IMG/VR virus record: IMGVR_UViG_3300025127_000344
Span: 1 to 21,230 of that record
Reading direction: 5' to 3' (one strand)
Length of the DNA: 21,230 nucleotides
Source: a virus
The position numbers and the translations under genes were made by a program. Below, in pieces: positions 2-19,647 of this stretch (position 1 is its first letter; each line of letters starts with the position of its first letter). The notes under the pieces are model-generated. The model did not search any database, was not told where the DNA came from, and worked only from the letters and a program-made list of their open reading frames with translations.

Positions 2-2146
2 GCTAATATTAATATCCAGTATAGTAGTATTCCACCTATTAAAGCAACTTATGATTATGCTAAAAATAATCCCGATGAGGAAGTATTATTTATTTTAGGT
101 GCTAGAGAGGGTAATGAAGATGATTTTAAAGATATATCTGATAGAACTAAATCTCTTGATAATTACCCTAATTTAAATTTACGTACTATAGTTACCCAAG
201 GTGGTGTATCTGGTACAGCTGCTAGAGAGGCAGGTAAAATTAGTTCGGAAAAATTAAAACGTTTTCTACCAGATGAGTTAAGCAATAAAGAAGTAGAACA
301 AGTTTATCAAATGATTTCTGATAAATTAGATGAAGGTAGAAAAAAGAAAAAAGATCCTAAAAAAGGTACTGGTAAAAAACCTAAGGGTTCGGGTAGAAGA
401 TTATACACAGATGAAGATCCTAAAGATACAGTTGGTATTAAATTTAGTACTAGACAAGATATTGTAGATACATTAGCTAAAAAATCTTTTAAAGCCAAAT
501 CACATGCTAGGCAATCTCAAATCATTAATTTGATCCACCAAAGGGTAAGAGCGGCATTAGGTAGAACTAAGGATCCCAAGAAAAAAGCTAAATTAAAATC
601 TGGGTTTGAGTATATTAAAAAACGTAAAGAAGCATCGAAAGCTAAAACACAACGTTTAAAAAAACAAAAACTTAAAGAAAAAAAAGGATATGGTAAATCT
701 TCAGGTTATAGATATAGATCTATTTATAAAAAAGGAGGTAAGTTTTACTTTATGCAAGATAATCCATTTTCACCAGGGATAAGACAAGAATTTGGTCCTT
801 ACAAAACTAAAGAGGCGGCTAAAAGAAAAATGCAATCATTCCCTCCGGGTACTAGTTATAGAGATTTAACCGAAATTGGTATAGACTTATCTAACTACTC
901 AGGACAAGTATTACCTGGAGATGTTCTAAGAGCACCTAAGGGTTTTCCATTAGGGGGTAAAAAATTAGAAAAATCTAAACAACTAAAAGTTATAAAAAAC
1001 AGTAGAGAGGGAGTTAATAGATATAAACTTTCATTAGAGGATTCAGAGGGTAAAAGGTATACTGTTAGAAATTTTCAAATGGATGGTGAGTATAAGGGTA
1101 AAAAATTACCTAAATGGGGTATGGTTAGAAAATCTAAAAAAAATCTAAATGAGGAAATAGACTCCAGTAGGTTTGATTTTAAACCCTATATTGCTTCACT
1201 TAATCAATATTTTATAGATAATGAAATGGCTATAGAACCTATACCTAATGTAAAAATGGTTCATAATGATATAGAAAATGGGGAAGATATATTTGGTAAT
1301 ACTGCTTATTATGCCCCTTCTACTAATTTAATAGTTCTTTTTACTTATGGTAGGCACCCCAAAGATATTTTACGATCTTATGCTCATGAATTAGTTCATG
1401 TACATCAAAATATGGAAGATAGATTACAAAACATAAATACTACTGATGTTAATGAGGATGATTATTTAGAACAACTAGAAAGAGAAGCATATGAAACTGG
1501 AAATATTATGTTTAGAAGTTGGACGGATTCACTTACTGGTAATAAATTGCAAGAAAATATTCAAATGATAATTACTGAAAAAAAGAAAAAGGATCCATTT
1601 GGTCTTAAGGCATATGCCTTACAATTAGCTAAAGGTTTAGAGGAACAAGAAAGTGAATATAAAGTTTATCTTGATATGGATGGTGTTGTGGCTAATTTTG
1701 ATAAACGATTTGAAGATCTATCAGGTATGGCTCCAAGAGAATTTGAATCTAAATATGGTAAAAATAAATTTTGGGATTTTATAGATGAAGAACATAAAGT
1801 AAGTTTTTGGGTGGGAATACCAGTTATGCCTGGGGCTTCAGCTTTAATTGATAGGGTAAAAAAATATAATTATGAATTACTTACTGCCCCTTCAGTTAAA
1901 AAACAATCATATTTAGGTAAAATTCTTTGGGTAAGAAATCATAATGATTTATTAGGTGGTAAACCACGAATTAATTTTAAAAAGGCTAAAGATAAACATA
2001 AAGTTAAATCACAATTAAGTGATAAAGATATTTTAATTGATGATAGAATGGACACAATTGAAAGATGGGAAGCAGCTGGAGGTACAGGTATTCATTATAA
2101 ATCAGCAAGTCAAGTTTTAAATGATTTAAATAAAATGGGGTTATGA
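2..2146 (+). CDS. 5'-truncated multidomain protein: nucleotidyltransferase remnant, basic module, HExxH peptidase-like, HAD phosphatase
   Basis: The frame is open from base 2, so the gene starts before the window; the first visible ATG at 311 lies inside the protein. Residue numbers count from base 2 (714 residues). Residues 1-100 look like the C-terminal half of a cytidylyltransferase-fold nucleotidyltransferase, with a strand-like EVLFILGARE and the VSGTAARE signature at 69-76. Residues 112-230 are very Lys/Arg-rich, and 232-285 form a small aromatic/basic module (GYRYRSIYKKGGKFYF). Residues 387-526 hold a zinc-peptidase signature, HELVH at 462-466, with a possible third ligand in EREA at 493-496. 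Residues 554-714 are a HAD fold of the 5'-nucleotidase type: DMDG at 558-561, then LTAPS and LIDDR. Candidate (I/L)-x-E prohead-protease sites sit between the domains at E111, E384 and E526. HAD is the safest call; peptidase activity is inferred from the motif alone. It could be a packaged polyprotein or simply a fusion enzyme. Confidence 0.8.
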   Translation, partial: ANINIQYSSIPPIKATYDYAKNNPDEEVLFILGAREGNEDDFKDISDRTKSLDNYPNLNLRTIVTQGGVSGTAAREAGKISSEKLKRFLPDELSNKEVEQVYQMISDKLDEGRKKKKDPKKGTGKKPKGSGRRLYTDEDPKDTVGIKFSTRQDIVDTLAKKSFKAKSHARQSQIINLIHQRVRAALGRTKDPKKKAKLKSGFEYIKKRKEASKAKTQRLKKQKLKEKKGYGKSSGYRYRSIYKKGGKFYFMQDNPFSPGIRQEFGPYKTKEAAKRKMQSFPPGTSYRDLTEIGIDLSNYSGQVLPGDVLRAPKGFPLGGKKLEKSKQLKVIKNSREGVNRYKLSLEDSEGKRYTVRNFQMDGEYKGKKLPKWGMVRKSKKNLNEEIDSSRFDFKPYIASLNQYFIDNEMAIEPIPNVKMVHNDIENGEDIFGNTAYYAPSTNLIVLFTYGRHPKDILRSYAHELVHVHQNMEDRLQNINTTDVNEDDYLEQLEREAYETGNIMFRSWTDSLTGNKLQENIQMIITEKKKKDPFGLKAYALQLAKGLEEQESEYKVYLDMDGVVANFDKRFEDLSGMAPREFESKYGKNKFWDFIDEEHKVSFWVGIPVMPGASALIDRVKKYNYELLTAPSVKKQSYLGKILWVRNHNDLLGGKPRINFKKAKDKHKVKSQLSDKDILIDDRMDTIERWEAAGGTGIHYKSASQVLNDLNKMGL

Positions 2147-2746: not shown

Positions 2747-4219
2747 ATGAAAGATAATTTTAACATTTATAATTGGAAACAAAACACCAATAAAAATTCT
2801 GAAAATAAAGAAAAATTCGATTTATATGAATGGAATAAAAAAAGATATTTAGGTGAATTAGATATTTCTGATGAAGAAGAAGGACAGAATGTAAGTGCAG
2901 CTAATTTATCTGGGGATGTTAATATAACTCGTGGGGGAGATGATCCTAAAACCGGAGCCGAGCAAGAATCAGATGATAACGTAGTGGGAGAAGGTGTTAA
3001 TGATAGAGAAATAAAAGGTAAACTTTCTGATTTAACTTATGATTTTTTATCTAATTATTTTGAAACAGAAAGATTTAATGCACCTAATCCTGATGATAGT
3101 TCTAGAACTATTTATAGTCCTGATCAATGGGAAGATTGGAAACAGGGTATTATGAAAAGGTTTGGGGATGTTGATATTAAACTAGATAACCAGGGTAATT
3201 TTGATAGTGATAAATTTCAAATTTTAGATAAACAATTTCAATCTGATAAAAAAGGATTTATTCAGAGTAAAGCAGCTTATTTAGATAAAATTAGACAAAG
3301 AACTAATTTTGGTTTAGATGAAGCAATGGATGCATCCAGAGATAAATTAAATCAACTTGCTATGAATATAGGATTTGATAAATTTGCTAAAACTATATTA
3401 ATGTTAAAAGATGAAAATCTTTTAAATGATATAGTTGATGCTATGAAAATGTATAAAGTTGATAATGTTAGTTATTATAACCCAGACGTATTAAAAGAAT
3501 CAATTAATTTAAGTGATTATAATGAAGATGTAGAAAAGGCTATAGATGCTGGTATTAGGGTAGGTAGTAACTTTGATGTAGAAGATGTTATGTATTATGT
3601 ACATAATAATTGGATGGCAGGAAATTTATCAGCAGATGAAGCAATGAAAAAAATAAGTAAATATATTAGTCCTATAAGAGAAAATATTGATTATGATGAA
3701 GCTTTAACATTAAGAGGGATGTTAGCTGATCTAAAAAAAGAAAGGGAGCAATTATTTAGAGATATGGAACAGGAAGCTGAACCCGAAGGTGGACCAATTG
3801 CTGATAGATATGGTAACGAATTAAATAAAATAGAAGATCGTATGTATAAAATTGCTAAACAACTCCGTGATTATGATATGAATGAAAATGTAGCTCCTAA
3901 CCATGATGGTAAGGCTGCACCTTATGGTTCTGGTTATAAAGCTGTTAAAGAAACTTTAAGGTTTATTAAAGAAAATAACCCCGAATTCACAAATGAAGAA
4001 ATTAAAGCTGAATTAAAAAATATTAAGGAATTAGGTTCATTATTAGATGAAAAAGCTAAATCCAAATTATGTAAAAGAGGTAGAGATTATATAGCTGCAA
4101 GAAAAAGAGCAGGTGAAAAATCATCTGCTTATTTATCTGGTAGAGCAGTTAAAGTTTGTAAGGGACAAATTAAAGGAGCAGGTGGTAAAAGAAAAAAATC
4201 TTATAAAGGAAAAAAATAA
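2747..4219 (+). CDS. Modular virion-associated candidate with acidic body and basic Cys-pair tail
   Basis: This 490-residue protein begins [13 protein letters not shown], and a similar phrase ([17 protein letters not shown]) follows near residue 24. Both resemble the short N-terminal motif of the 5413, 10576 and 11064 products. A Gly/Asp/Glu-rich stretch follows ([20 protein letters not shown]), then a long charged, mostly helical body. The last 55 residues are a basic module with a C-x28-C pair ([20 protein letters not shown] to KVCKGQIKG) and a Lys/Gly tail (KKSYKGKK). I recall the same tail attached to different bodies in marine phages, which suggests an exchangeable module. It is the first gene after a late promoter and ends in a TAATG junction with the next gene. 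A structural or internal-head role is inferred from context. Confidence 0.8.
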
Positions 4220-8206: not shown

Positions 8207-8667
8207 TGACAGCAGCCGAATTAAGACAAAAAATAAGACTACTTGCTAAACAAGTATATTCTGATGTTGTAAAAACTGACGAAGCAGCTCTTGCCTATCC
8301 AGAAATTCAAAAATTTCCTCCTTTAAAAGATATTATTGTAAATTTATTGACTAATGAATTTGATTCATTTATTGAATCAGTTGATTGGGTAGCCCCAAGA
8401 CCTACAACTTTTAGAATTAATTTATTAAATGGTGAAAGTTTTCTTTTAATGTACACTATTAAAAGTTGGATAGGAACGGTAGAGGGAAAAAAATATTATT
8501 TACTTAATCTAGACGAAGAAGAAAGATGTGCTTTAGCGATTAATAGACTACTAAGAGTAGGCCCAGCTAGTGGTGCTGAAGTTGAAGGCGAAGCTGATGC
8601 TGGAGCAGATACAGGTGAAACTGAGGTTGAAGATGAAGTGGATGTTAACGTAGACGTAGAAGCATAA
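8206..8667 (+). CDS. Conserved-looking small phage protein with acidic tail
   Basis: This 153-residue protein begins at a TAATG junction. The first 115 residues look like a compact globular alpha/beta domain (FRINLLNGESFLLMYTIKSW, then KKYYLLNLDEEERCALAINR). The remaining residues are an acidic Ala/Gly/Glu/Val tail ending EVEDEVDVNVDVEA. The tail repeats the V-D/N-V-D-V pattern of the proteins encoded at 5413, 6413 and 8667, suggesting a shared linker or interaction motif. I do not recognise the fold. Its position within an uninterrupted late run suggests a structural or assembly role. Confidence 0.75.
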   Translation: MTAAELRQKIRLLAKQVYSDVVKTDEAALAYPEIQKFPPLKDIIVNLLTNEFDSFIESVDWVAPRPTTFRINLLNGESFLLMYTIKSWIGTVEGKKYYLLNLDEEERCALAINRLLRVGPASGAEVEGEADAGADTGETEVEDEVDVNVDVEA

Positions 8668-9722
8668 TGGATGTATTTGATAAATTATTAAAAGAACATA
8701 GCTGGAAATTTAAAAAAGGATATCCAGATATTAAGGACATTGAAGATAAAACTCTTTTAGAAAAAATTATTAATGAATATTTAATTGAAGCTGAAGAAGA
8801 AATTAATATTGATGTTGAGGATAAGGAATCTTTAAAGGTAAAAAAAGCTTCACCTCCGCAACCAACCAAAGGTTCAAAAGTTTATAATGACACTATAAAA
8901 AACGCTTTAGATGTAGAAGTTATTCCTACAACACCTTCTAAATATAAATTTAATGGTTTAGGAGGAGCTACCTTTACTGAAACGGTTAAAGAAGCAGATA
9001 AAGCAATTTTTAGTAAATTATATCCTGTTAAACCACCTAAAACAGGTCAAGAAGTAGGTACTGCAGGTTCATTAGGAGTAGGTAATGGAGAGATAGCATT
9101 ATATTGGTTATATAATTTTTCTAATAGTGATGTAGTGGTAACCGAAGGTAGAGAAGGAGATGACCCCGATCTTAGATTTAATGATGTAGGTGTAGAAGTA
9201 AAAGCTTATAAAAACCCTGATGGCACAGTTGGATTAGGTAGATTTGGTGCTGATAAGGAAAATTTAGCACTTTTAAGTATAATCTTTGGATTAAATACTT
9301 TAAGTAAGGCATTAGGTGATGAACCACCAGCGAGATCAATTAATCCAACAAATTTTAATGGGCAACAATTGGAAGATGCCATGCAAGTTCTTATTGATTT
9401 TGATAGTATTGATGGTTTAAGTAGTTTGGCAGATCAATACCCATTATTTAGATCTATTCAAACTAATATAGATTCTGTTAAATCTAAATTAGGTGACTTT
9501 AGTGATGCTAAAACAGGTGCAATACTTATGGCCGATAAATTAGTAAGATCTAAATTAGAAAGAAAACCAGGTAATGGTGGATACTTAGCTAATGTTAAAC
9601 CAGATGGAGGATTAAAATTTTTCCAAATTGATTTGGATAGGCTAAAAGATGAAGATTTAATTAATTCATTTAAAGTATCTCAAAGTGCTATTTTAGTTAA
9701 ATTTTCAAAAATTTTTAATTAA
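8667..9722 (+). CDS. Candidate PD-(D/E)XK nuclease-fold protein
   Basis: This 351-residue protein starts at a TAATG junction. The N-terminal 40 residues (MDVFDKLLKEHSWKFKKGYP) form a module I recall at the start of various marine phage proteins. An acidic EEEINIDVEDKE follows at residues 42-54. The central domain has the arrangement expected for a PD-(D/E)XK nuclease core: E142 in a helix-like GEIALYWL, then D168 in DDPDLRF, and E177-V-K179 in GVEVKAY. The rest is helical. The spacing fits a restriction-like fold, but only a few residues define it, so the nuclease call is tentative. If correct it could process DNA in the head or after entry. It might also be a virion protein with a similar fold and no activity. 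Confidence 0.65.
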   Translation: MDVFDKLLKEHSWKFKKGYPDIKDIEDKTLLEKIINEYLIEAEEEINIDVEDKESLKVKKASPPQPTKGSKVYNDTIKNALDVEVIPTTPSKYKFNGLGGATFTETVKEADKAIFSKLYPVKPPKTGQEVGTAGSLGVGNGEIALYWLYNFSNSDVVVTEGREGDDPDLRFNDVGVEVKAYKNPDGTVGLGRFGADKENLALLSIIFGLNTLSKALGDEPPARSINPTNFNGQQLEDAMQVLIDFDSIDGLSSLADQYPLFRSIQTNIDSVKSKLGDFSDAKTGAILMADKLVRSKLERKPGNGGYLANVKPDGGLKFFQIDLDRLKDEDLINSFKVSQSAILVKFSKIFN

Positions 9723-9724
9723 TT

Positions 9725-10333
9725 ATGTGTAAATGCGGATGTAATACTTGTGAAACAATAAGAGGTCCTTTACTTACAGAAGGTAAAGTTAAGGTAAAAC
9801 CTTTATTATCTGAAAATCTACAATATCATTTAGATAAGAATATTCCTTTATTTGAATCAGTATTTAGAATTGGTTCTAATGCTCACTTAAACTTAATTAG
9901 AGAAGCTAGAAAAATGTATTCTAGAGATATAATAGATTTATGTGAGGAAGATGAGGGCTTAATTAAAACACATTTAGGAGAATTTGGAATATATGAAGGT
10001 GAAAGTGTACCTTTAGATTTACCTATGTTAAATGAAAAGAAAAAAGCTAAGAAAAAGAAAAAAGATCCACCAATTGGAAAACCAAAAAGAGGAGGACCTA
10101 AAGCATATTATGTATATGTAAGAGACCCTAAAACAAAAAGAATTAAAAAAGTAACATTTGGTTCTGGTGGTTTAAGAGCAAAAATTAGAAATCCTAAAGC
10201 AAGAAAAGCATTTGCAGCTCGTCATAGATGTTCCCAAGCAAAAGATAGAACAACAGCTCGTTATTGGTCTTGTAGATTACCTAGGTATGCTAAACAATTA
10301 GGATTAGGTGCTAATATGAATACTTTTTGGTAA
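9725..10333 (+). CDS. Cys-rich leader plus basic Cys-pair module, candidate processed head protein
   Basis: This 202-residue protein opens with a cysteine cluster (MCKCGCNTCETIRGP), then LLTE/GKV at E19, which fits the gp21-type (I/L)-x-E/G site. A second candidate site is MLNE104 followed by KKKAKKKKKDPPIGK, a linker also seen at two domain borders of the first gene. The C-terminal 95 residues form a basic module (KAYYVYVRDPKTKRIKKVTF to RYAKQLGLGANMNTFW) with a C-x13-C pair (HRCSQ to YWSCRLP). I recall this tail in many marine T4-like phages, function unknown. The upstream junction is TAATTATG, identical to those before the 11064 and 12011 ORFs. Metal binding by the leader and packaging in the head are both inference. 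Confidence 0.8.
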   Translation: MCKCGCNTCETIRGPLLTEGKVKVKPLLSENLQYHLDKNIPLFESVFRIGSNAHLNLIREARKMYSRDIIDLCEEDEGLIKTHLGEFGIYEGESVPLDLPMLNEKKKAKKKKKDPPIGKPKRGGPKAYYVYVRDPKTKRIKKVTFGSGGLRAKIRNPKARKAFAARHRCSQAKDRTTARYWSCRLPRYAKQLGLGANMNTFW

Positions 10334-10334
10334 A

Positions 10335-10583
10335 ATGAATCCCTATAAAGACAGTTCTAATATAAGAAGTTTTTCTAAAAATGTTAAAAAGCTAGAATTA
10401 GTTTGGCATAAAGATGATGAAGATAGAAATATAGAAATATTAGAAGGTAAAGGTTGGCAAATGCAATTTGATGATGAATTACCTTTTAAGTTAGTAAAAG
10501 GAGATCATATATTTATAAAACGACATCGTATTCATAGAATACATAAAGGTGTAACTGATTTAAAAATTAGAATAAATGGATAA
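10335..10583 (+). CDS. Small cupin-like protein
   Basis: This 82-residue protein has the layout of a minimal single-domain cupin: GWQMQFDDELPFKLVKGDHI, then a short gap, then KRHRIHRIHKG and a final strand DLKIRING. The Gly-Asp before a beta strand and the His-rich motif match the two short cupin motifs, although the metal ligands are not complete by eye. It overlaps the start of the 10576 gene by 8 bases. It may be a small structural or sugar-binding protein. Enzyme activity cannot be claimed. Confidence 0.7.
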   Translation: MNPYKDSSNIRSFSKNVKKLELVWHKDDEDRNIEILEGKGWQMQFDDELPFKLVKGDHIFIKRHRIHRIHKGVTDLKIRING

Positions 10584-11061
10584 TTTCGATTTAAGAAAAT
10601 ATTTGGCGGAAGGTAAATTATACGAAAACGTATTAGCTCAAAAACTTAGGGATGAAGCAAAACACCCGGATTCAAAAGTAGGTGCTGCCATACTTAACAA
10701 ATATGCTGAAAAAGTAGAAAAAGCTAATAAAGAAGATTATGTAAAACTTCTAAAAGATATGGAAAGTGAATTAATATCTAAACACCCCGATACATTTAGT
10801 GGTGAAGATGACATTCCAGGAAGCTTTTTATTTGAAGATAAATTGAACGAACAACTAGATTTAAGTAGCCGTGAATACCCAGCTAAAAAATTATTTGCTT
10901 TAATTGCTCGTGATTTAAAATTTTCTTCAAGAGTGCAAGATAATGAAATGTTAAATGCAGACGAAGCACTTGAAATTATGAGAAAAGTAATAGAAATTGA
11001 AGGTACAGAATCATCACCAGAAGCAGCATTAGGTGAATATATAGCTAACGGAGAATTATAA
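10576..11061 (+). CDS. Candidate capsid-targeted internal protein A
   Basis: This 161-residue protein begins MDNFDLRKYLAE/GKLYEN. The first 16 residues share 11 identities with the 11064 product and resemble the T4 internal-protein targeting sequence (MKTYQEFIAEA). L-A-E12/G13 fits the T4 prohead-protease rule. A helical, charged body follows, with a second possible site at KLNE/Q. The segment YPAKKLFALIARDLKF looks like a small conserved module. The gene overlaps the cupin gene by 8 bases and is followed 2 bases later by the 11064 gene. No catalytic motif is seen. Internal-head location is inferred from the N-terminus. Confidence 0.75.
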   Translation: MDNFDLRKYLAEGKLYENVLAQKLRDEAKHPDSKVGAAILNKYAEKVEKANKEDYVKLLKDMESELISKHPDTFSGEDDIPGSFLFEDKLNEQLDLSSREYPAKKLFALIARDLKFSSRVQDNEMLNADEALEIMRKVIEIEGTESSPEAALGEYIANGEL

Positions 11062-11063
11062 TT

Positions 11064-12008
11064 ATGGATAACTTTGATTTAAGAAAATATATATCTGAAG
11101 GAAGAATATTTAAAGAAGAACTAAGTTATGCTTTTAGTGAGTATGATTTTACTATTGAAGATGATGCCTATCAAGATGAAGTAGAAGTAAAGATTAAAAA
11201 GGAATTAAAAAAAGTTCAAAGTGAACCTCTTGAAATTCCCGAAAAAGACCTACAAGCTATAATTAAAAATGCTGAAAACTATTTTTCTAAAGAAGCTAGA
11301 AAAGAAGAAAAAGCTAATAGAAATCCTAGAAAAATTAAATCTACTGAATTTGCACAGTTTGCAGCTGATTACTATACTGAAGAATACTATCCAGAAAATT
11401 ATGGAAAAGATTATCCTGATAAAAGGCCTGTTAGCAAACCAGTTTCTGATGATCAAGAGAGATTGAAGAGCTTTGATGGTATAGATGTTCCTTCAACTCC
11501 CGAAGAACGTGAAATAAGAAGAAGAAGCAAGTTGCGTTTAAAGTATGGCCATGCTGCTTATTTTATTCGTAATAAAGATTTACCTAAGGACCTTTTTTAT
11601 TCAATGCCTAAAGATGAATTTGATAAAACATTTGGAAGAATAGTAGATGAGCCTACACAGGATGAATTAATTGACGGCAATATAGATATATTATTTGATA
11701 AACCAGTAAATGAAGTTAGACAATTTTTTGATGACAAACAATTGGCAAATGATATTTTAAGAAATCAAGCTGATGTTGAAAGACAATTGGGTACTAAATT
11801 AAAGGATTTTAAATTTAGTGGTGATGACAGAGTGTTTACTGCTGTTGATCCTGAAGAGTTTACTGTTTATGCTTTTAAATATAGAGACGTAAGAGATCCT
11901 AAATTTCCTTATAAAGATGAAGAACCATTTTTATCAGATGAAGGATATGAACCTCAAATAATAAAAGTAGATGGTAAAAAAGTTGCAGTAACTGTAGGAA
12001 ATATATAA
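11064..12008 (+). CDS. Candidate capsid-targeted internal protein B
   Basis: This 314-residue protein begins MDNFDLRKYISE/GRIFKEE, with I-S-E12/G13 fitting the gp21-type site. After the shared N-terminus the body differs from the 10576 product, so only the leader is shared. The body is highly charged. It includes a basic patch (EREIRRRSKLRLKYGHAAYF), then alternating acidic and hydrophobic stretches (KDLPKDLFYSMPKDEFDKTF), and ends in a strand-like VDGKKVAVTVGNI. No known domain is recognised. The gene is the last sizeable ORF before the terminator at 12122 and is followed after 2 bases by the micro-ORF at 12011. Confidence 0.75.
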   Translation: MDNFDLRKYISEGRIFKEELSYAFSEYDFTIEDDAYQDEVEVKIKKELKKVQSEPLEIPEKDLQAIIKNAENYFSKEARKEEKANRNPRKIKSTEFAQFAADYYTEEYYPENYGKDYPDKRPVSKPVSDDQERLKSFDGIDVPSTPEEREIRRRSKLRLKYGHAAYFIRNKDLPKDLFYSMPKDEFDKTFGRIVDEPTQDELIDGNIDILFDKPVNEVRQFFDDKQLANDILRNQADVERQLGTKLKDFKFSGDDRVFTAVDPEEFTVYAFKYRDVRDPKFPYKDEEPFLSDEGYEPQIIKVDGKKVAVTVGNI

Positions 12009-12168: not shown

Positions 12169-12192
12169 ATGTGTAAAACTTGTATTAAATGA
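12169..12192 (+). CDS. Possible 7-residue leader ORF MCKTCIK
   Basis: A short frame, ATG at 12169 to TGA at 12190-12192, encodes MCKTCIK with one CxxC. Its stop overlaps the start codon of the FAD gene (ATGA), which would allow coupled translation or attenuation. If transcription starts as predicted from the promoter at 12139, the ATG at 12169 may lie upstream of or at the transcript start, so expression is doubtful. Confidence 0.15.
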   Translation: MCKTCIK

Positions 12193-13493
12193 ATGTAGTA
12201 ATAATAGGAGCAGGTGTAGCAGGTGTTAATGCTGCTACAAAATTAGTTGATAATAATTTTAAAGGTAAAATCACTATTATAGATATGGGCTTGGATCCAT
12301 ATTTAAGACCATATGAAGAAGTAATGACAGGTTACTTAGGTGCAGGTGGTTGGTCTGATGGTAAATTAACTTATTCTACTCAAATTGGTGGACAATTATC
12401 TAAGTACGTAGGTGAAGAAAAAGCTATGGAGCTTATGAAACAAGTAGTAGATAATTTTAGTAGATTCCACCCTTATCCAGAACAAATTATATTATCAAAT
12501 CCAGATAAAGAACCAGATTTTATTAAACCATATTTTGGTTTAAGATTATTTCCATGCTGGCACATTGGCACTGATTATTTACATGAAATTGGTAAAAGTT
12601 GGTATGATTATTTAATATCTAAAGGTGTTGAATTTCACTGGGAAACTAAAGTTAGTGATATTAATTTTAAAACAAATGAAGTTACATTTAAATCTACCAA
12701 ACCAGAATTTGCTAACATGGATAATGATGGTATTTTTTATGATAAACTTATATTTGGTGTAGGTAAATCAGGTATTGATTTTACTTCTGAAATCATGCAA
12801 AAATATGATTTACCAACAGAAGAAAAACCAGCTCAAGTAGGTGTTAGATTTGAAGCACCACAAAAGCACTTTCAAAAATTAATTGATATAGCTTATGATT
12901 TTAAGTTATATAGAAAATTAGATAATGTTAGTTTAAGATCGTTTTGTACTAATAATAATGCTGCATATGTAGCGGTAGAAGAAACTTATGGTGATCATAG
13001 TTACAATGGTCACGCTAAAAAAGATGAGTCATTTAGAAATGATATGACTAATTTTGGTATATTAATGGAAGTTAGAGGTATTGAAAAACCATTTAAGTGG
13101 GCAAGAGAATTAGTGGGTAAAGTACAAGAAAATAGTACAGGTTTATTCTATAGTCCTACTAGAGAACCCTCAATGACATCAGAAGGAGTAGATGTATCAG
13201 CTACTAAAATAGATAATTTAGATGTAGTTAAAGATGCATTCCAAGGATATTTTAAGTATATTGATGATTTTATCAATGATATGAAATTAGTATTTCCTAC
13301 GTTGAAAGACGATTGGGGGATCTATGTACCTGAGGTAAAATACCTAGCTCCTGAACCATTAGTTAACTATTCTGATTTATCATTAACTAAATATCCTGAT
13401 GTGCATTTTGTAGGTGATGCGTTGTCTGCAAGAGGGATTTCGGTATCAGGGGCTCACGGTACACTTGTTGCTGAAAAAATTTTGGAAGTTTAA
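12189..13493 (+). CDS. FAD-dependent oxidoreductase (COG2509-like)
   Basis: This 434-residue protein starts MNVVIIGAGVAGVNAA, a Rossmann GxGxxG (residues 7-12) at the very N-terminus that would bind FAD. The C-terminus has the second FAD motif VHFVGDALSARGISVSGAHG followed by a helix, in the style of uncharacterised FAD-dependent dehydrogenases (COG2509), where a GDG/S-x-x-RGI motif precedes the last helix. The middle includes YEEVMTGYLGAGGWSDGKL and PAQVGVRFEAP, consistent with a substrate domain. The substrate is unknown. The gene lies just after a strong terminator and has its own host-type promoter candidate, so it is probably expressed separately from the flanking late genes. It is an uncommon metabolic gene for a phage and was probably acquired from a bacterium. 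Confidence 0.8.
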   Translation: MNVVIIGAGVAGVNAATKLVDNNFKGKITIIDMGLDPYLRPYEEVMTGYLGAGGWSDGKLTYSTQIGGQLSKYVGEEKAMELMKQVVDNFSRFHPYPEQIILSNPDKEPDFIKPYFGLRLFPCWHIGTDYLHEIGKSWYDYLISKGVEFHWETKVSDINFKTNEVTFKSTKPEFANMDNDGIFYDKLIFGVGKSGIDFTSEIMQKYDLPTEEKPAQVGVRFEAPQKHFQKLIDIAYDFKLYRKLDNVSLRSFCTNNNAAYVAVEETYGDHSYNGHAKKDESFRNDMTNFGILMEVRGIEKPFKWARELVGKVQENSTGLFYSPTREPSMTSEGVDVSATKIDNLDVVKDAFQGYFKYIDDFINDMKLVFPTLKDDWGIYVPEVKYLAPEPLVNYSDLSLTKYPDVHFVGDALSARGISVSGAHGTLVAEKILEV

Positions 13494-13515: not shown

Positions 13516-13770
13516 ATGAGTGAAAAATGGGAACAAAGTAAAAGATTAAAAAAGGCAGATGGCACTATAGCAGTTGTTTGGGAAGGTAAATTACATAATT
13601 GGGATGGACCAGCTTTAATACCACAGGGTAATCTTAAAAAAGCTGAATATCATATTTATGGAATAAAATATTCTAAATCGGAATGGACTGATAGAAGAAG
13701 ACAAAGAGAAGGTTTGCCTTACTATAAAAACCAATCTATGAAATCTAAATTAACAGATTATAGAAATTAA
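13516..13770 (+). CDS. Small DGPA-motif protein
   Basis: This 84-residue protein contains one copy of the phrase GKLHNWDGPALIPQGN, similar to the repeated H-x-x-DGPA motif of MORN-like phage and bacterial proteins, followed by KKAEYHIYGIKYSKSEW. The rest is basic. I recall close relatives in marine phages but no function. It is joined to the following nucleotidyltransferase gene by TAATG and probably shares the promoter at 13482. Confidence 0.7.
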   Translation: MSEKWEQSKRLKKADGTIAVVWEGKLHNWDGPALIPQGNLKKAEYHIYGIKYSKSEWTDRRRQREGLPYYKNQSMKSKLTDYRN

Positions 13771-14192
13771 TGAAAAGGGAAGCAGTTATAGTATCTGGTT
13801 ATTTTAATCCACTTCATGTTGGGCATTTAGAATTATTTGAAAAGGCATCTAGTGAGGGTAATTTTTTAATTGTTATTGTTAATTCAGATTTACAAAGAGA
13901 ATTAAAAGGTTCAAAAGAATTTATGTCCGAAGATGAAAGATTAAAAATAATACAATCTATTAAGGGAGTTGGTATGGCTCTAATTTCTGTGGATAAAGAT
14001 TCAACTCAAAACCAAACATTAAGATTATTACATGATAGATTTGGTGATACTTGGGATCTTAATTTTGCTAATGGGGGAGACCAAAATAATAATACTATCC
14101 CAGAAGGCTTGGTTTGTAATGAATTGGGCATTACATTAATAGACGGATTGGGTGATAAAATTCAATCTAGTAGTTGGTTATTAAATAAATAA
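13770..14192 (+). CDS. Cytidylyltransferase-like nucleotidyltransferase
   Basis: This 140-residue protein shows the class signature SGYFNPLHVGHLELFEKA with the catalytic HxGH at residues 16-19. Later features are KEFMSEDERLKIIQSI and a C-terminal KIQSSSWLL that stands in place of the usual ISSS/T-x-x-R motif. Length and layout match single-domain enzymes of the glycerol-3-phosphate cytidylyltransferase, RfaE2 and NMN adenylyltransferase superfamily, which transfer a nucleotide from CTP or ATP to a phosphorylated substrate. The substrate cannot be told from sequence alone. The NadR-like kinase gene starts 2 bases downstream, which makes NAD salvage one option; activation of a sugar or polyol phosphate is another. 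Confidence 0.85.
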   Translation: MKREAVIVSGYFNPLHVGHLELFEKASSEGNFLIVIVNSDLQRELKGSKEFMSEDERLKIIQSIKGVGMALISVDKDSTQNQTLRLLHDRFGDTWDLNFANGGDQNNNTIPEGLVCNELGITLIDGLGDKIQSSSWLLNK

Positions 14193-14193
14193 T

Positions 14194-14724
14194 ATGAAAA
14201 TAGGTTTATGTGGTACAATGAGTGTGGGTAAAACTACATTAGTAAAAGCATTAAAAAATACTTCGGAATTTAACATGTATAATTTTTCTACAGAACGTAG
14301 TAAATATTTAAATGATTTAGGTATTCCATTGAATACTGATTCAACATTAAAAGGGCAAACGGTATTTTTAGCCGAGCGTTGTGCAGAATTAATGAATAAT
14401 AATATAATTACTGATAGAACAGTTATTGATGTAATGGCATTTACATTAAATGCAAAATCTATAGGGCATCAAGATAAAGATATATTTGAAAATTATGCAA
14501 AAGAATTTATTAGAGAATATGATTATATTTTTTATATTTCTCCTTATGGCATTCCTATTGAAAATAATGGAGTACGTGAGACAGATGAACATTATAGAGA
14601 TATAATTGATTTTACTATTACTACACTTATTAAAAGATATAGCCATATGGCTAATAGAATAGAAAAAATTTCCGGTTCAACAGAAGAACGTATAGAACAG
14701 ATATTAAAGTTTACAAATCTTTAA
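14194..14724 (+). CDS. NadR-like P-loop kinase (AAA_28 type)
   Basis: This 176-residue protein starts MKIGLCGTMSVGKTTLVKAL, a Walker A motif at residues 7-15. It continues with ITDRTVIDVMAFTLNA, the DR-x-x-x-D-x-x-AF pattern of the AAA_28/NadR C-terminal kinase family. YDYIFYISPYGIPIENNGVR and RETDEHYRDI follow, matching the lid region. Members include ribosylnicotinamide kinase, but the family also covers other ATP-dependent kinases. The gene is 2 bases after the nucleotidyltransferase, so the two probably act in one pathway, like a split NadR. It ends directly before a late promoter, so it closes the non-late block. Confidence 0.85.
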   Translation: MKIGLCGTMSVGKTTLVKALKNTSEFNMYNFSTERSKYLNDLGIPLNTDSTLKGQTVFLAERCAELMNNNIITDRTVIDVMAFTLNAKSIGHQDKDIFENYAKEFIREYDYIFYISPYGIPIENNGVRETDEHYRDIIDFTITTLIKRYSHMANRIEKISGSTEERIEQILKFTNL

Positions 14725-16129: not shown

Positions 16130-17701
16130 ATGGCTGATTTAAAAAAAGTAATAAGACAAGAATACCTTAAATGTGCTAAAGATCCTGTTCATTTTATGCG
16201 TAAATATTGTTATATCCAACATCCTCAAAGGGGAAGAATTCAATTTAATCTATATCCATTTCAGGAAAAAGTATTAACTTTATTTAGAGATAATCCATAT
16301 TCTATAGTACTTAAATCAAGACAATTAGGTTTATCTACTTTATCAGCTGGCTATTCTTTATGGTTAATGATATTTCATAAGGATAAAAATATTCTTTGTA
16401 TAGCTACAAAGCAAGAGACAGCTAAAAACATGGTTACTAAAGTTAAGTTTATGTTTGAAAATTTGCCCTCTTGGTTAAAAATAGATGCATCCGAAAATAA
16501 TAAACTTAATTTAAGATTAATTAATGGTTCTCAAATTAAAGCAACATCCGCTAGTAGTGATGCAGGTAGATCAGAAGCAGTATCCCTACTACTAATAGAT
16601 GAAGCAGCTTTTATTGATAATATTGGTGAAATTTGGGCATCAGCTCAACAAACACTAGCTACTGGAGGTGGTTGTATAGCTTTAAGTACTCCATATGGTA
16701 CTGGAAATTGGTTTCATCAAACTTGGACTAGAGCAGAATCATCGGAAAATGAATTTTTACCTATAAAGTTACCTTGGTATGTTCATCCTGAAAGAGATGA
16801 AGCTTGGAGAAAAAGACAAGATGAATTATTAGGTGATCCTAGAATGGCAGCTCAGGAATGTGATTGTGATTTTGCTACTTCTGGTGATATTGTTTTTTAT
16901 CCTGAATTTATAGAATATTATGAAAAATCTTATATAAAAGATCCAATGGAACGTAGAGGTATAGATCAAAATTTATGGGTTTGGGAATCTCCTGACTACA
17001 CTAGAGATTATATGGTGGTTGCAGACGTTTCTAGAGGTGACGGAAAGGATTATTCTGCATGTCATGTAATAGATGTAGCTAATAATGTACAAGTAGCTGA
17101 ATATAAAGGACAATTAGGAACAAAAGAGTATGGTCATTTATTAGTTGGTTTAGCTTCTGAGTATAATGAAGCTTTATTAGTTATTGAAAATGCTAATATA
17201 GGTTGGGCTACTATTCAAGTTGCACTTGATAGAAACTATTTAAATTTATATTATTCTCCAAGAGGTGATTCAAATAATGCTAATACTTATTTTGATAAGT
17301 ATCAAGATCATTCAAAAATGGTACCTGGCTTTACTATGTCTTCTAGAACTAGACCTATGGTAATAGGTAAATTTCAAGAATATTTAAATGATAAAGGTGT
17401 TACTATTCAATCTAAAAGACTAATAGAAGAAATGAAAACCTTTATTTGGAGAAATGGTAGACCTGAGGCACAATCGGGTTATAATGATGATTTAGTTATG
17501 TCTTTTGGTATTTCTATGTATATTAGGGATACGGCTCTTAAATTTAGGCAGCAGGGTTTAGATATAACTAAAAATGCTTTAAACAATATTAAAGTTAATA
17601 GAACTGCCTATAAAGCTGGTTATTTTTCAAGTGGTGCAGATAACCCTTACCATATAGATACTAAAAATGGTAAAGAAAATATTGATTGGCTTTTTAAATA
17701 A
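16130..17701 (+). CDS. terL: Large terminase subunit, T4 gp17-like
   Basis: This 523-residue packaging motor pumps DNA into the prohead and cuts it. The N-terminal ATPase has Walker A KSRQLGLST (S63-T70; T4 has SRQLGKTT), Walker B LLLIDEAA (D157-E158) and the coupling motif STPYG (186-190). The C-terminal RNase H-like nuclease has D299 (VVADVSRGDG), E353 (VIENAN) and D453-D454 (YNDDLVMS). All catalytic positions are present. In Walker A the usual Lys before the Thr/Ser is Leu, and the Arg of SRQ would take its role. The protein is shorter than T4 gp17 (about 610 residues). The portal gene lies just downstream, with no small terminase, sheath or tube gene between them. Confidence 0.97.
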   Translation: MADLKKVIRQEYLKCAKDPVHFMRKYCYIQHPQRGRIQFNLYPFQEKVLTLFRDNPYSIVLKSRQLGLSTLSAGYSLWLMIFHKDKNILCIATKQETAKNMVTKVKFMFENLPSWLKIDASENNKLNLRLINGSQIKATSASSDAGRSEAVSLLLIDEAAFIDNIGEIWASAQQTLATGGGCIALSTPYGTGNWFHQTWTRAESSENEFLPIKLPWYVHPERDEAWRKRQDELLGDPRMAAQECDCDFATSGDIVFYPEFIEYYEKSYIKDPMERRGIDQNLWVWESPDYTRDYMVVADVSRGDGKDYSACHVIDVANNVQVAEYKGQLGTKEYGHLLVGLASEYNEALLVIENANIGWATIQVALDRNYLNLYYSPRGDSNNANTYFDKYQDHSKMVPGFTMSSRTRPMVIGKFQEYLNDKGVTIQSKRLIEEMKTFIWRNGRPEAQSGYNDDLVMSFGISMYIRDTALKFRQQGLDITKNALNNIKVNRTAYKAGYFSSGADNPYHIDTKNGKENIDWLFK

Positions 17702-17727: not shown

Positions 17728-19647
17728 ATGGCTAATAAAAGTGTATTTAGTAGATTAAGAAGATTATTTTCTACTGATGTTGTTATAAGAAATGTAGGAG
17801 GAAACCAACTAAGAGTAATAGATAGTGGTAAAATCCAATCAATGGGTGAAATTGAAACTAATTCACTTATTGATAGATATAATAGAATATATTCTACTAG
17901 TCCTTCTTCCCTTTATGGAGCTCAATTTAATTTAAACTACCAATATCTTAGACCAAGACTATATTCAGAATATGATGTCATGGATCAGGATGCTATTATT
18001 GCTTCAGCACTTGATGTTCTATCAGATGAATCTACATTAAAAAATGACATGGGAGAAGTTCTTCAAATTAGAAGTGCTAATGAAGATATACAAAAAATTC
18101 TATATAATTTATTTTATGATGTACTAAATATAGAATTTAATTTATGGATGTGGATTAGACAAATGTGTAAATACGGTGATTTTTTCCTAAAATTAGAAAT
18201 AGCAGAAAAATTTGGTGTTTATAATGTTATTCCTTACACTGCGTATCACATAGAAAGACAGGAAGCATTTAATGATGCTAACCCTTCTGAAATAAGATAT
18301 AAATACGCACCTGATGGTTTAATTAGTTTAAGTTCAGGTTACTACCCAGTACAATCTAATAGAGCGGTAGAAGATGATACAACAGGTATATTTTTTGATA
18401 ATTATGAAATGGCTCATTTTAGATTAGTATCTGATGTTAATTATCTTCCTTATGGTAGGGCTTATATAGAACCTGCCAGAAAATTATTTAAACAATATAC
18501 ATTAATGGAAGATGCTATGCTAATTCATAGAATAGCTCGCGCACCAGAAAAACGTATATTTTATATGAATGTTGGTTCTATACCACCTAATGAAATAGAA
18601 ACATTTATGCAAAAAACAATATCTCAATTAAAAAGAACTCCGTTTTTAGATGAAAAAACAGGTGATTATAATTTAAGATATAATATGCAGAATATGCTTG
18701 AAGATTTTTATATTCCTATTAGAGGTAATGATACAACAACCAAAATAGAAACAACCCCAGGTTTACAATATGATGGTATTCAGGATGTTGAATATTTAAG
18801 AGGTAAGTTATTTGCTGCACTTAAAATACCTAAAGCATTTTTAGGTTATGAAGAGGGTGTAGAGGGTAAGGCTACTCTAGCTGCCCAAGATATTAGATTT
18901 GCTAGAACAATTGAAAGAATTCAAAGAATAGTTTTATCTGAATTAAATAAAATTGCATTAGTACACTTGTATACTCAAGGTTATACAGATGAAACTTTAA
19001 CTAATTTTTCACTTCAGATGACCAGTCCATCGATTGTATTAGAGCAAGAAAAAATTGAATTACTTAAAGGAAAAACTGAATTAGCAGGTCAATTATTAGA
19101 ACAAGGATTAGTTCCATCTGATTGGATTTATGATAATGTATATCAATTTAGTGAGGATCAATTTGAAGAATATAGAGATTTAAGTAGAGAAGATGCTAAA
19201 CGTAAGTTTAGAATAGCTCAAATTGAGGCAGAAGGAAATGACCCAGTACAAACAGGTAAATCTTATGGTACACCTCATGATTTGGCCTCATTATATGGTA
19301 AAGGAAGAATGTATACAGACCCAGGTAATGTACCAGAAAAAGATAAATATGCTGCTGATGATCCTAAATTAGGAAGACCAGTAGTATCTAACACTAAACG
19401 AAATAAACAAGAGGATAATTTTGGTAAAGATAGACTTGGAGTAAAAAGAATGAAAGGAAAGGATAAAAATGATTCCGATGGTATAAAACAAAATTTTAAA
19501 GGAAATAGCCCATTAGCTTTAGAGGATGCAAGAACTACATATCTAAAAAATAAGGATATGTTTAAAAAATTAAATGAAAAAAAGTTAATATTTGAAAAAG
19601 ATGAAAATTCATCTTCGCTTCTTGATGAAAACCAATTAAAGAAGTAA
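17728..19647 (+). CDS. Portal protein, T4 gp20-like
   Basis: This 639-residue protein would form the dodecameric ring at the head vertex through which DNA passes. Recognisable gp20 features are YDVMDQDAIIASALDVLSDE in the N-terminal wing, LPYGRAYIEPARKLFKQYTL, IHRIARAPEKRIFYMNVGSI, the MLEDFYIPIRG block, and IEDVEYL-type QDVEYLRGKLFAALKIPKAF. It is longer than T4 gp20 (about 520 residues). The extra length is a low-complexity, charged C-terminal tail from about residue 515 onward (KRNKQEDNFGKDRLGVKRMK). That tail includes KKLNE/KKL and SLLDE/N, which fit the gp21-type cleavage rule. The gene has its own late promoter candidate. Confidence 0.93.
   Translation: MANKSVFSRLRRLFSTDVVIRNVGGNQLRVIDSGKIQSMGEIETNSLIDRYNRIYSTSPSSLYGAQFNLNYQYLRPRLYSEYDVMDQDAIIASALDVLSDESTLKNDMGEVLQIRSANEDIQKILYNLFYDVLNIEFNLWMWIRQMCKYGDFFLKLEIAEKFGVYNVIPYTAYHIERQEAFNDANPSEIRYKYAPDGLISLSSGYYPVQSNRAVEDDTTGIFFDNYEMAHFRLVSDVNYLPYGRAYIEPARKLFKQYTLMEDAMLIHRIARAPEKRIFYMNVGSIPPNEIETFMQKTISQLKRTPFLDEKTGDYNLRYNMQNMLEDFYIPIRGNDTTTKIETTPGLQYDGIQDVEYLRGKLFAALKIPKAFLGYEEGVEGKATLAAQDIRFARTIERIQRIVLSELNKIALVHLYTQGYTDETLTNFSLQMTSPSIVLEQEKIELLKGKTELAGQLLEQGLVPSDWIYDNVYQFSEDQFEEYRDLSREDAKRKFRIAQIEAEGNDPVQTGKSYGTPHDLASLYGKGRMYTDPGNVPEKDKYAADDPKLGRPVVSNTKRNKQEDNFGKDRLGVKRMKGKDKNDSDGIKQNFKGNSPLALEDARTTYLKNKDMFKKLNEKKLIFEKDENSSSLLDENQLKK

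Follow-up and report, generated by a model that had tools for sequence, protein, structure and literature searches.

Polyproteins of unrelated enzymes that are separated by processing are familiar in eukaryotic RNA viruses; for tailed phages, no description of a prohead-protease polyprotein of enzymes was found in the open-access literature.

The internal head proteins of phage T4 carry leaders of 10-19 residues, and the T4 protease gp21 cleaves after L/I-x-E (PMC9026906). In IPIII, residues 4 and 7 control targeting and residues 8 and 10 control processing (PMC9026906), a Glu-to-Asp exchange at residue 10 being reported to block the cut, and Alt is cleaved at both ends, at ITE6 and LTE619 (PMC5694885). 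The locus described here is like the T4 internal proteins (IPI, IPII, IPIII and Alt) in its short leaders ending in L/I-x-E, its setting among head genes, its association with a gp21-type protease and its cargo, which is mostly basic or enzymatic. The leaders of T4 ipII/ipIII (MKTYQEFIAE-A, where the last hyphen marks the cut) and gp24 (MAKINELLRE-S) fit M..h..hh.E, the pattern of the leaders in this group. The two systems differ in that T4 has one cargo protein per gene, whereas here a single chain combines 4 to ~10 unrelated modules, every joint between them carrying a site, and the modules are swapped between phages. In the giant phages phiKZ and SPN3US a number of ejection proteins are likewise cleaved behind Glu by the gp21-like prohead protease, some of them at more than one site, but the motif there is A-x-E or S-x-E, and propeptides are removed rather than enzymes separated (PMC5694885).

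A second likeness is with the polyvalent proteins of phages, which, according to Iyer et al. 2017 (PMC5512222), unite numerous domains of different kinds, among them zincin, ART-like and ParB-like ones, in a single polypeptide, are predicted to be injected with the DNA and evolve as mosaics. For their release, cutting by an embedded zincin or no cutting is proposed (PMC5512222), and the passages drawn on here contain no description of prohead-protease sites between domains; the modules found here, by contrast, are short and bounded by the motif phi-x-E, i.e., (I/L/V/M)-x-E. The nearest cultured relative found was Flavobacterium phage vB_FspM_immuto (NC_055915), in which gp88 holds an NMNAT-like domain and two zincins, preceded by an additional N-terminal domain joined via AQTLAE, and the HAD domain is a separate adjacent gene (gp87) with the leader MKKVMGNLADLLLE. 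Both genes are annotated only as enzymes, without a role as processed head precursors.

Modules of the frame and their homologues

The window, i.e., the whole stretch of DNA that was analysed, is a 21,230-base virus record from a T4-like phage, the host of which is probably a member of the Bacteroidota. Its positions 2-2146 (+ strand) form a single open frame of 714 aa, which is truncated at the 5' end, lacks a start codon of its own, shares 4 bases with the next ORF and has the same orientation as the head genes. The ~83 residues missing at this end are supplied by homologues, with the leader MSLVNELIKGLLPE and the motif GGFKPPTKGH. The features of the window to which the text refers are the following.

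2-334, + strand: module A, C-terminal part of a putative NMNAT/PPAT-type nucleotidyltransferase, residues 1-111, ending in KLDE111
335-679, + strand: module B, Lys-rich and basic, residues 112-226, ending in KLKE226
680-874, + strand: module C, small, residues 227-291, ending in DLTE291
875-1153, + strand: module E, small and beta-rich, residues 292-384, ending in NLNE384
1154-1555, + strand: module F, putative zincin metallopeptidase with HELVH, residues 385-518, ending in KLQE518
1556-1645, + strand: inter-domain stretch, residues 519-548, in which IITE526 and GLEE548 flank the leader-like peptide KKKKDPFGLKAYALQLAKGLEE
1646-2143, + strand: module K, HAD domain resembling 5'(3')-deoxyribonucleotidases (DMDGV), residues 549-714
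2747-4219, + strand: second head-region ORF with cassette D at its C-terminus (residues ~440-490), directly after SLLDE435
8667-9722, + strand: ORF with the T4-type 10-residue leader MDVFDKLLKE, a pattern that alone is weak evidence
9725-10333, + strand: ORF opening with a CxCGxxxC mini-cassette (9725-9781) that ends in PLLTE
16130-17701, + strand: T4-type large terminase (Terminase_6N, E 3.2e-14)
17728-19647, + strand: gp20 portal (Portal_T4, E 1.3e-64)

A sequence-only reading of the window had recognised in the frame a nucleotidyltransferase end, a basic module, a HELVH metallopeptidase-like segment and a HAD phosphatase, with (I/L)-x-E sites at the borders E111, E384 and E526; the frame, the profiles and the alignments bear out all of these, and the inventory is to be enlarged by two further modules and by the border sites E226, E291, E518 and E548.

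Module A of the window is 85% identical to that of homologue L005 and contains the motif SGTAAR, which most homologues share; GGFKPPTxGH lies in the part preserved only in the homologues. Profile matches to PPAT/NMNAT structures were weak (best E 8.6e-4), and the putative assignment to NMNAT/PPAT-type nucleotidyltransferases follows from the pair GxFxPxxxGH and SGTxxR. In module F, HExxH and a downstream Glu are invariant in 21/21 aligned homologues, which suggests a gluzincin-type metallopeptidase with this Glu as the presumed ligand; the match to Pfam Peptidase_M91 was weak and under the cut-off. Module K matched PHROG 2643 (5'-3' deoxyribonucleotidase) at E 1.2e-23 and, in VIA-align, the structures 3bwv (Z 15.2, rmsd 2.4, 140 aligned) and human mitochondrial dNT (Z 13.9), with a Pfam NT5C match under the cut-off; it is a HAD domain with the DxDG nucleophile motif, its best matches being 5'(3')-deoxyribonucleotidases, which is also its predicted activity. 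The VIA-align rows cover residues 550-714 only, and Foldseek returned 0 matches at E <= 0.001 for the whole-chain model. The search with module B gave two weak pelagiphage matches, relatives of module D were absent from 50,697 phage records, and the model of the ART-like module of the homologues was poor (pLDDT 50).

Homologues were collected by an IMG/VR scan, which gave 29 loci, and by two profile scans, from which the best 80 of 345 and the best 80 of 402 stretches were taken. Among the matches listed, 107 proteins carry module A after removal of duplicates and 67 are complete from module A through the C-terminal HAD, with lengths of 447-1602 aa. More than 20 modules are gained, dropped or reordered across these 107 listed proteins. 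In the first homologue set, A comes first, F lies within the chain and K last, and the variable modules between them are B, C, D, E, a second zincin, ParB-like, ART-like, cupredoxin, a zinc-ribbon-like peptide, DUF5661 and others. Module B is an exchangeable unit, present at 84-98% identity in many homologues at differing positions; it precedes F in most of them and follows it in L023 and L026. Modules C and E are each gained or missing as one unit, and module H is duplicated in L020. With several disparate predicted activities on one polypeptide, the frame also shares a defining trait of polyvalent proteins.

Several further cassettes and genes were observed. The cupredoxin, similar to plastocyanin/azurin (Copper-bind, E 3.1e-13), is a cassette at residues ~451-550 of the protein encoded at 7755-10967 in L026. 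The CxCGxxxC mini-cassette (15-20 residues), possibly a metal-binding peptide, occurs at gene starts and inside the polyproteins of L026, L030, L152 and L173, with phi-x-E directly after it in 19/19 contexts. In the window, two adjacent ORFs at 10576-12008 have different bodies and the common N-terminus MDNFDLRKY(L/I)(A/S)EG(K/R)(L/I), a longer leader type that is also present in immuto (MENFDLKKFLVENKL). An FAD/NAD-binding oxidoreductase-like gene (12189-13493; Pyr_redox_2, E 3.4e-9) lies inside the head-gene cluster, and at 13770-14724 a cytidylyltransferase-like gene (PF01467, E 2.7e-12) adjoins an AAA_28-type kinase gene (E 2.5e-9); this pair looks like a split NadR and would be a second nucleotidyltransferase besides that of the polyprotein.

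The motif at the joints

The window protein contains nine [ILVM].E motifs versus 9.9 expected from its composition, so the motif count was dropped as a signal, and the sequence-only reading had rightly looked for the signal in the placement instead. An AlphaFold2 model built from 15 sequences (mean pLDDT 69, pTM 0.31) shows separate folded blocks connected by low-confidence segments at residues 109-140, 225-238, 281-301, 361-386 and 513-550. Segments with pLDDT < 50 make up 21% of the chain and hold 7/8 [IL].E motifs (E111, E226, E291, E384, E518, E526 and E548) versus 1.7 expected (binomial tail 1.3e-4); among them, E226 lies within 225-238, E291 inside 281-301 and E384 in 361-386. The remaining motif, E596, belongs to the HAD domain itself. 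The control motifs E.[IL], [IL]E, [IL]..E, [IL].K and [IL].D occurred in the same segments at chance level.

As the module map was cut and named by hand at the motif, the map alone is no test of it. In order to avoid this circularity, breakpoints were defined with the motif ignored, from all-against-all alignments, as the ends of shared blocks beyond which both proteins go on, and the expected coincidence was taken from positions in the same proteins. Right-hand breakpoints lay no more than 1 residue away from where a motif ends in 153/354 distinct edges versus 18.2 expected (8.4x), 130 of them at offset zero, and left-hand breakpoints fell within 4 residues of a motif in 195/328 versus 47.8 expected (4.1x); no p-value is claimed for these ratios, since breakpoints of related proteins are not independent. 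An origin of the motif by chance in Lys/Glu-rich linkers would fit the overall count, which equals the composition expectation; it is refuted by the controls of the same composition, in which spacing, direction or one residue class was altered and which stayed near chance (0.4x-1.7x) at the same breakpoints, and we regard its probability as negligible.

At the exit of module A, the motif was present in 106/106 testable proteins, no more than 12 residues from where the profile ends. In 93 distinct junctions, its hydrophobic position was occupied by I in 35, L in 28, V in 24 and M in 6; the x position and the residues after Glu varied freely. A motif site also precedes the HAD domain in 67/67 of the complete proteins listed, and E111 and E384 were invariant in a 15-protein alignment. 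A DPFGL-type element stands before the HAD domain in 59/67 complete homologues, with a site upstream of it in 49 and a site between the element and the HAD domain in 59. The sequence-only reading had staked the idea on homologues keeping the sites at domain borders, and both the exit of A and the approach to the HAD domain, together with the motif-blind breakpoints, show that they do.

Across the joints, the hydrophobic residue is encoded by 11 different codons and Glu by both of its codons. The number of hydrophobic codons in use indicates selection at the protein level, and a DNA scar or microhomology as the source of the motif is disfavoured by the codons of both residues. The drift of codons and adjacent residues also bears on the possibility that the chain is an unprocessed multidomain protein of the polyvalent type, packaged or cytoplasmic, with phi-x-E joints that are uncut relics of old gene leaders. 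Its domains (zincin, ART-like, ParB-like and nucleotide enzymes) are like those of polyvalent proteins (PMC5512222), and the virion RNA polymerase of phage N4 is packaged without cutting (PMC5512222); relics would decay, however, and the hydrophobic residue and the Glu of the joints are kept, which makes uncut packaging or a cytoplasmic role unlikely.

Leaders on other genes, protease and capsid protein

Modules of the polyprotein also exist outside it, with the motif at the same place. Taking the first ATG of each frame as start site, the HAD domain as its own gene in immuto and other contigs is preceded by a brief leader with the motif at its end, e.g., MYKLTDLYKQLKE or the immuto leader given above. 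Hand-cut HAD leaders were scored 21/21 (shuffled mean 10.5), and the fair count is 20/21, because MMEKNYKIF of L110 is essentially leaderless and its match an accident of the start. In 67/67 distinct cases (shuffled mean 26.7), the P-loop kinase gene that directly precedes the polyprotein gene opens with a ~10-residue leader of the type MISLVQLLKE. Where module D is part of other genes, the motif lies ahead of it in 23/23 distinct contexts, some of them N-terminal (e.g., MDRIKELVKE), and cassette D in the second head-region ORF of the window matches module D at 67%. In the polyprotein homologues the leader likewise ends in the motif, a region that the window lost with its 5' end; in L143, L168 and L174 there is no leader, and the nucleotidyltransferase fold begins from the start. 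The 1602-residue polyprotein of L143 (1702-6510) has a P-loop kinase between two sites, the upstream kinase gene having been taken up there as a cassette.

Genome-wide, the 10-residue leader pattern was found in 19 families versus 0.5 expected from internal positions. This enrichment was dropped as evidence, given that a K-ending control of the pattern was nearly equal (8.8 vs 10.2 by family weight) and N-termini are generally hydrophobic; a crude leader scan by protein cluster gave no clear excess.

The stand-alone genes also inform on whether the embedded zincin, rather than a prohead protease, could process the chain. Module F with HExxH is present in 67/67 of the complete proteins listed, and processing by a zincin is a mechanism proposed for polyvalent proteins (PMC5512222). 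Zincin-free genes (the kinase, the stand-alone HAD and the module D genes) nonetheless have the same sites in their leaders and joints, and the joint motif is the published gp21 specificity (PMC9026906). Zincin processing would thus explain the universal F module and not the sites on genes that lack it, and we consider it very unlikely.

Cutting by a prohead protease is consistent with the gene content of the relatives, from whose records the evidence comes, the record of the window ending before the gp21 region. A gene of the Peptidase_S77 family, to which T4 gp21 belongs, was found in 5/16 relatives' records searched (E 1e-31 to 1e-36) and a gp23-type capsid gene in 4/9 records of relatives; in G006, all three genes, for the polyprotein, the protease and the capsid protein, share a strand and are ~22-24 kb apart. 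The capsid proteins of three relatives have IVSE-A, LVVE-S and LVTE-T aligned with LTE65-A of T4 gp23, so V-x-E at the T4 cleavage position of their gp23-type protein is a plausible cleavage site.

Proposed processing and its meaning

Taken together, the gene is quite probably a capsid-targeted precursor polyprotein of internal head proteins that is processed by the prohead protease and has diversified through the exchange of cassettes. The earlier idea of a polyprotein with prohead-protease-like sites is supported by the joint sites and, in relatives, by the protease and the plausible capsid site; it was understated, the locus being a shuffled array of cassettes with more modules and more sites than had been supposed.

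The short amphipathic leader of the homologues would act like the T4 capsid targeting sequence and draw the chain into the prohead core, where a gp21-type prohead protease would cleave each disordered joint behind the Glu of (I/L/V/M)-x-E. The nucleotidyltransferase, the small basic modules, the zincin and the deoxyribonucleotidase would be freed separately, stay in the capsid and leave with the DNA at ejection. Injection with the DNA is suggested by the position in the head cluster and the resemblance of the leaders, and the ejected modules would most likely change nucleotide/NAD metabolism or defences of the host. A theme of nucleotide/NAD metabolism is likely, judging from the predicted nucleotidyltransferase, deoxyribonucleotidase and kinase. 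Since each cassette ends in its own cut site, its insertion, loss, duplication or move to a stand-alone gene would be harmless. More broadly, we lean towards the view that the prohead protease releases the contents of a combinatorial cargo system, in which phages of this group load dozens of interchangeable effector cassettes into the capsid, as single proteins with leaders or as polyprotein strings, and evolve by swapping them, the main requirement being a terminal phi-x-E.

For this widespread T4-like group, phi-x-E at module ends would be a simple rule to predict packaged or injected proteins among the uncharacterised ones, and more than 20 domains come to light as candidate effectors. What T4-like phages have inside their heads, a question of long standing, can thereby be tested directly on a cultured phage.
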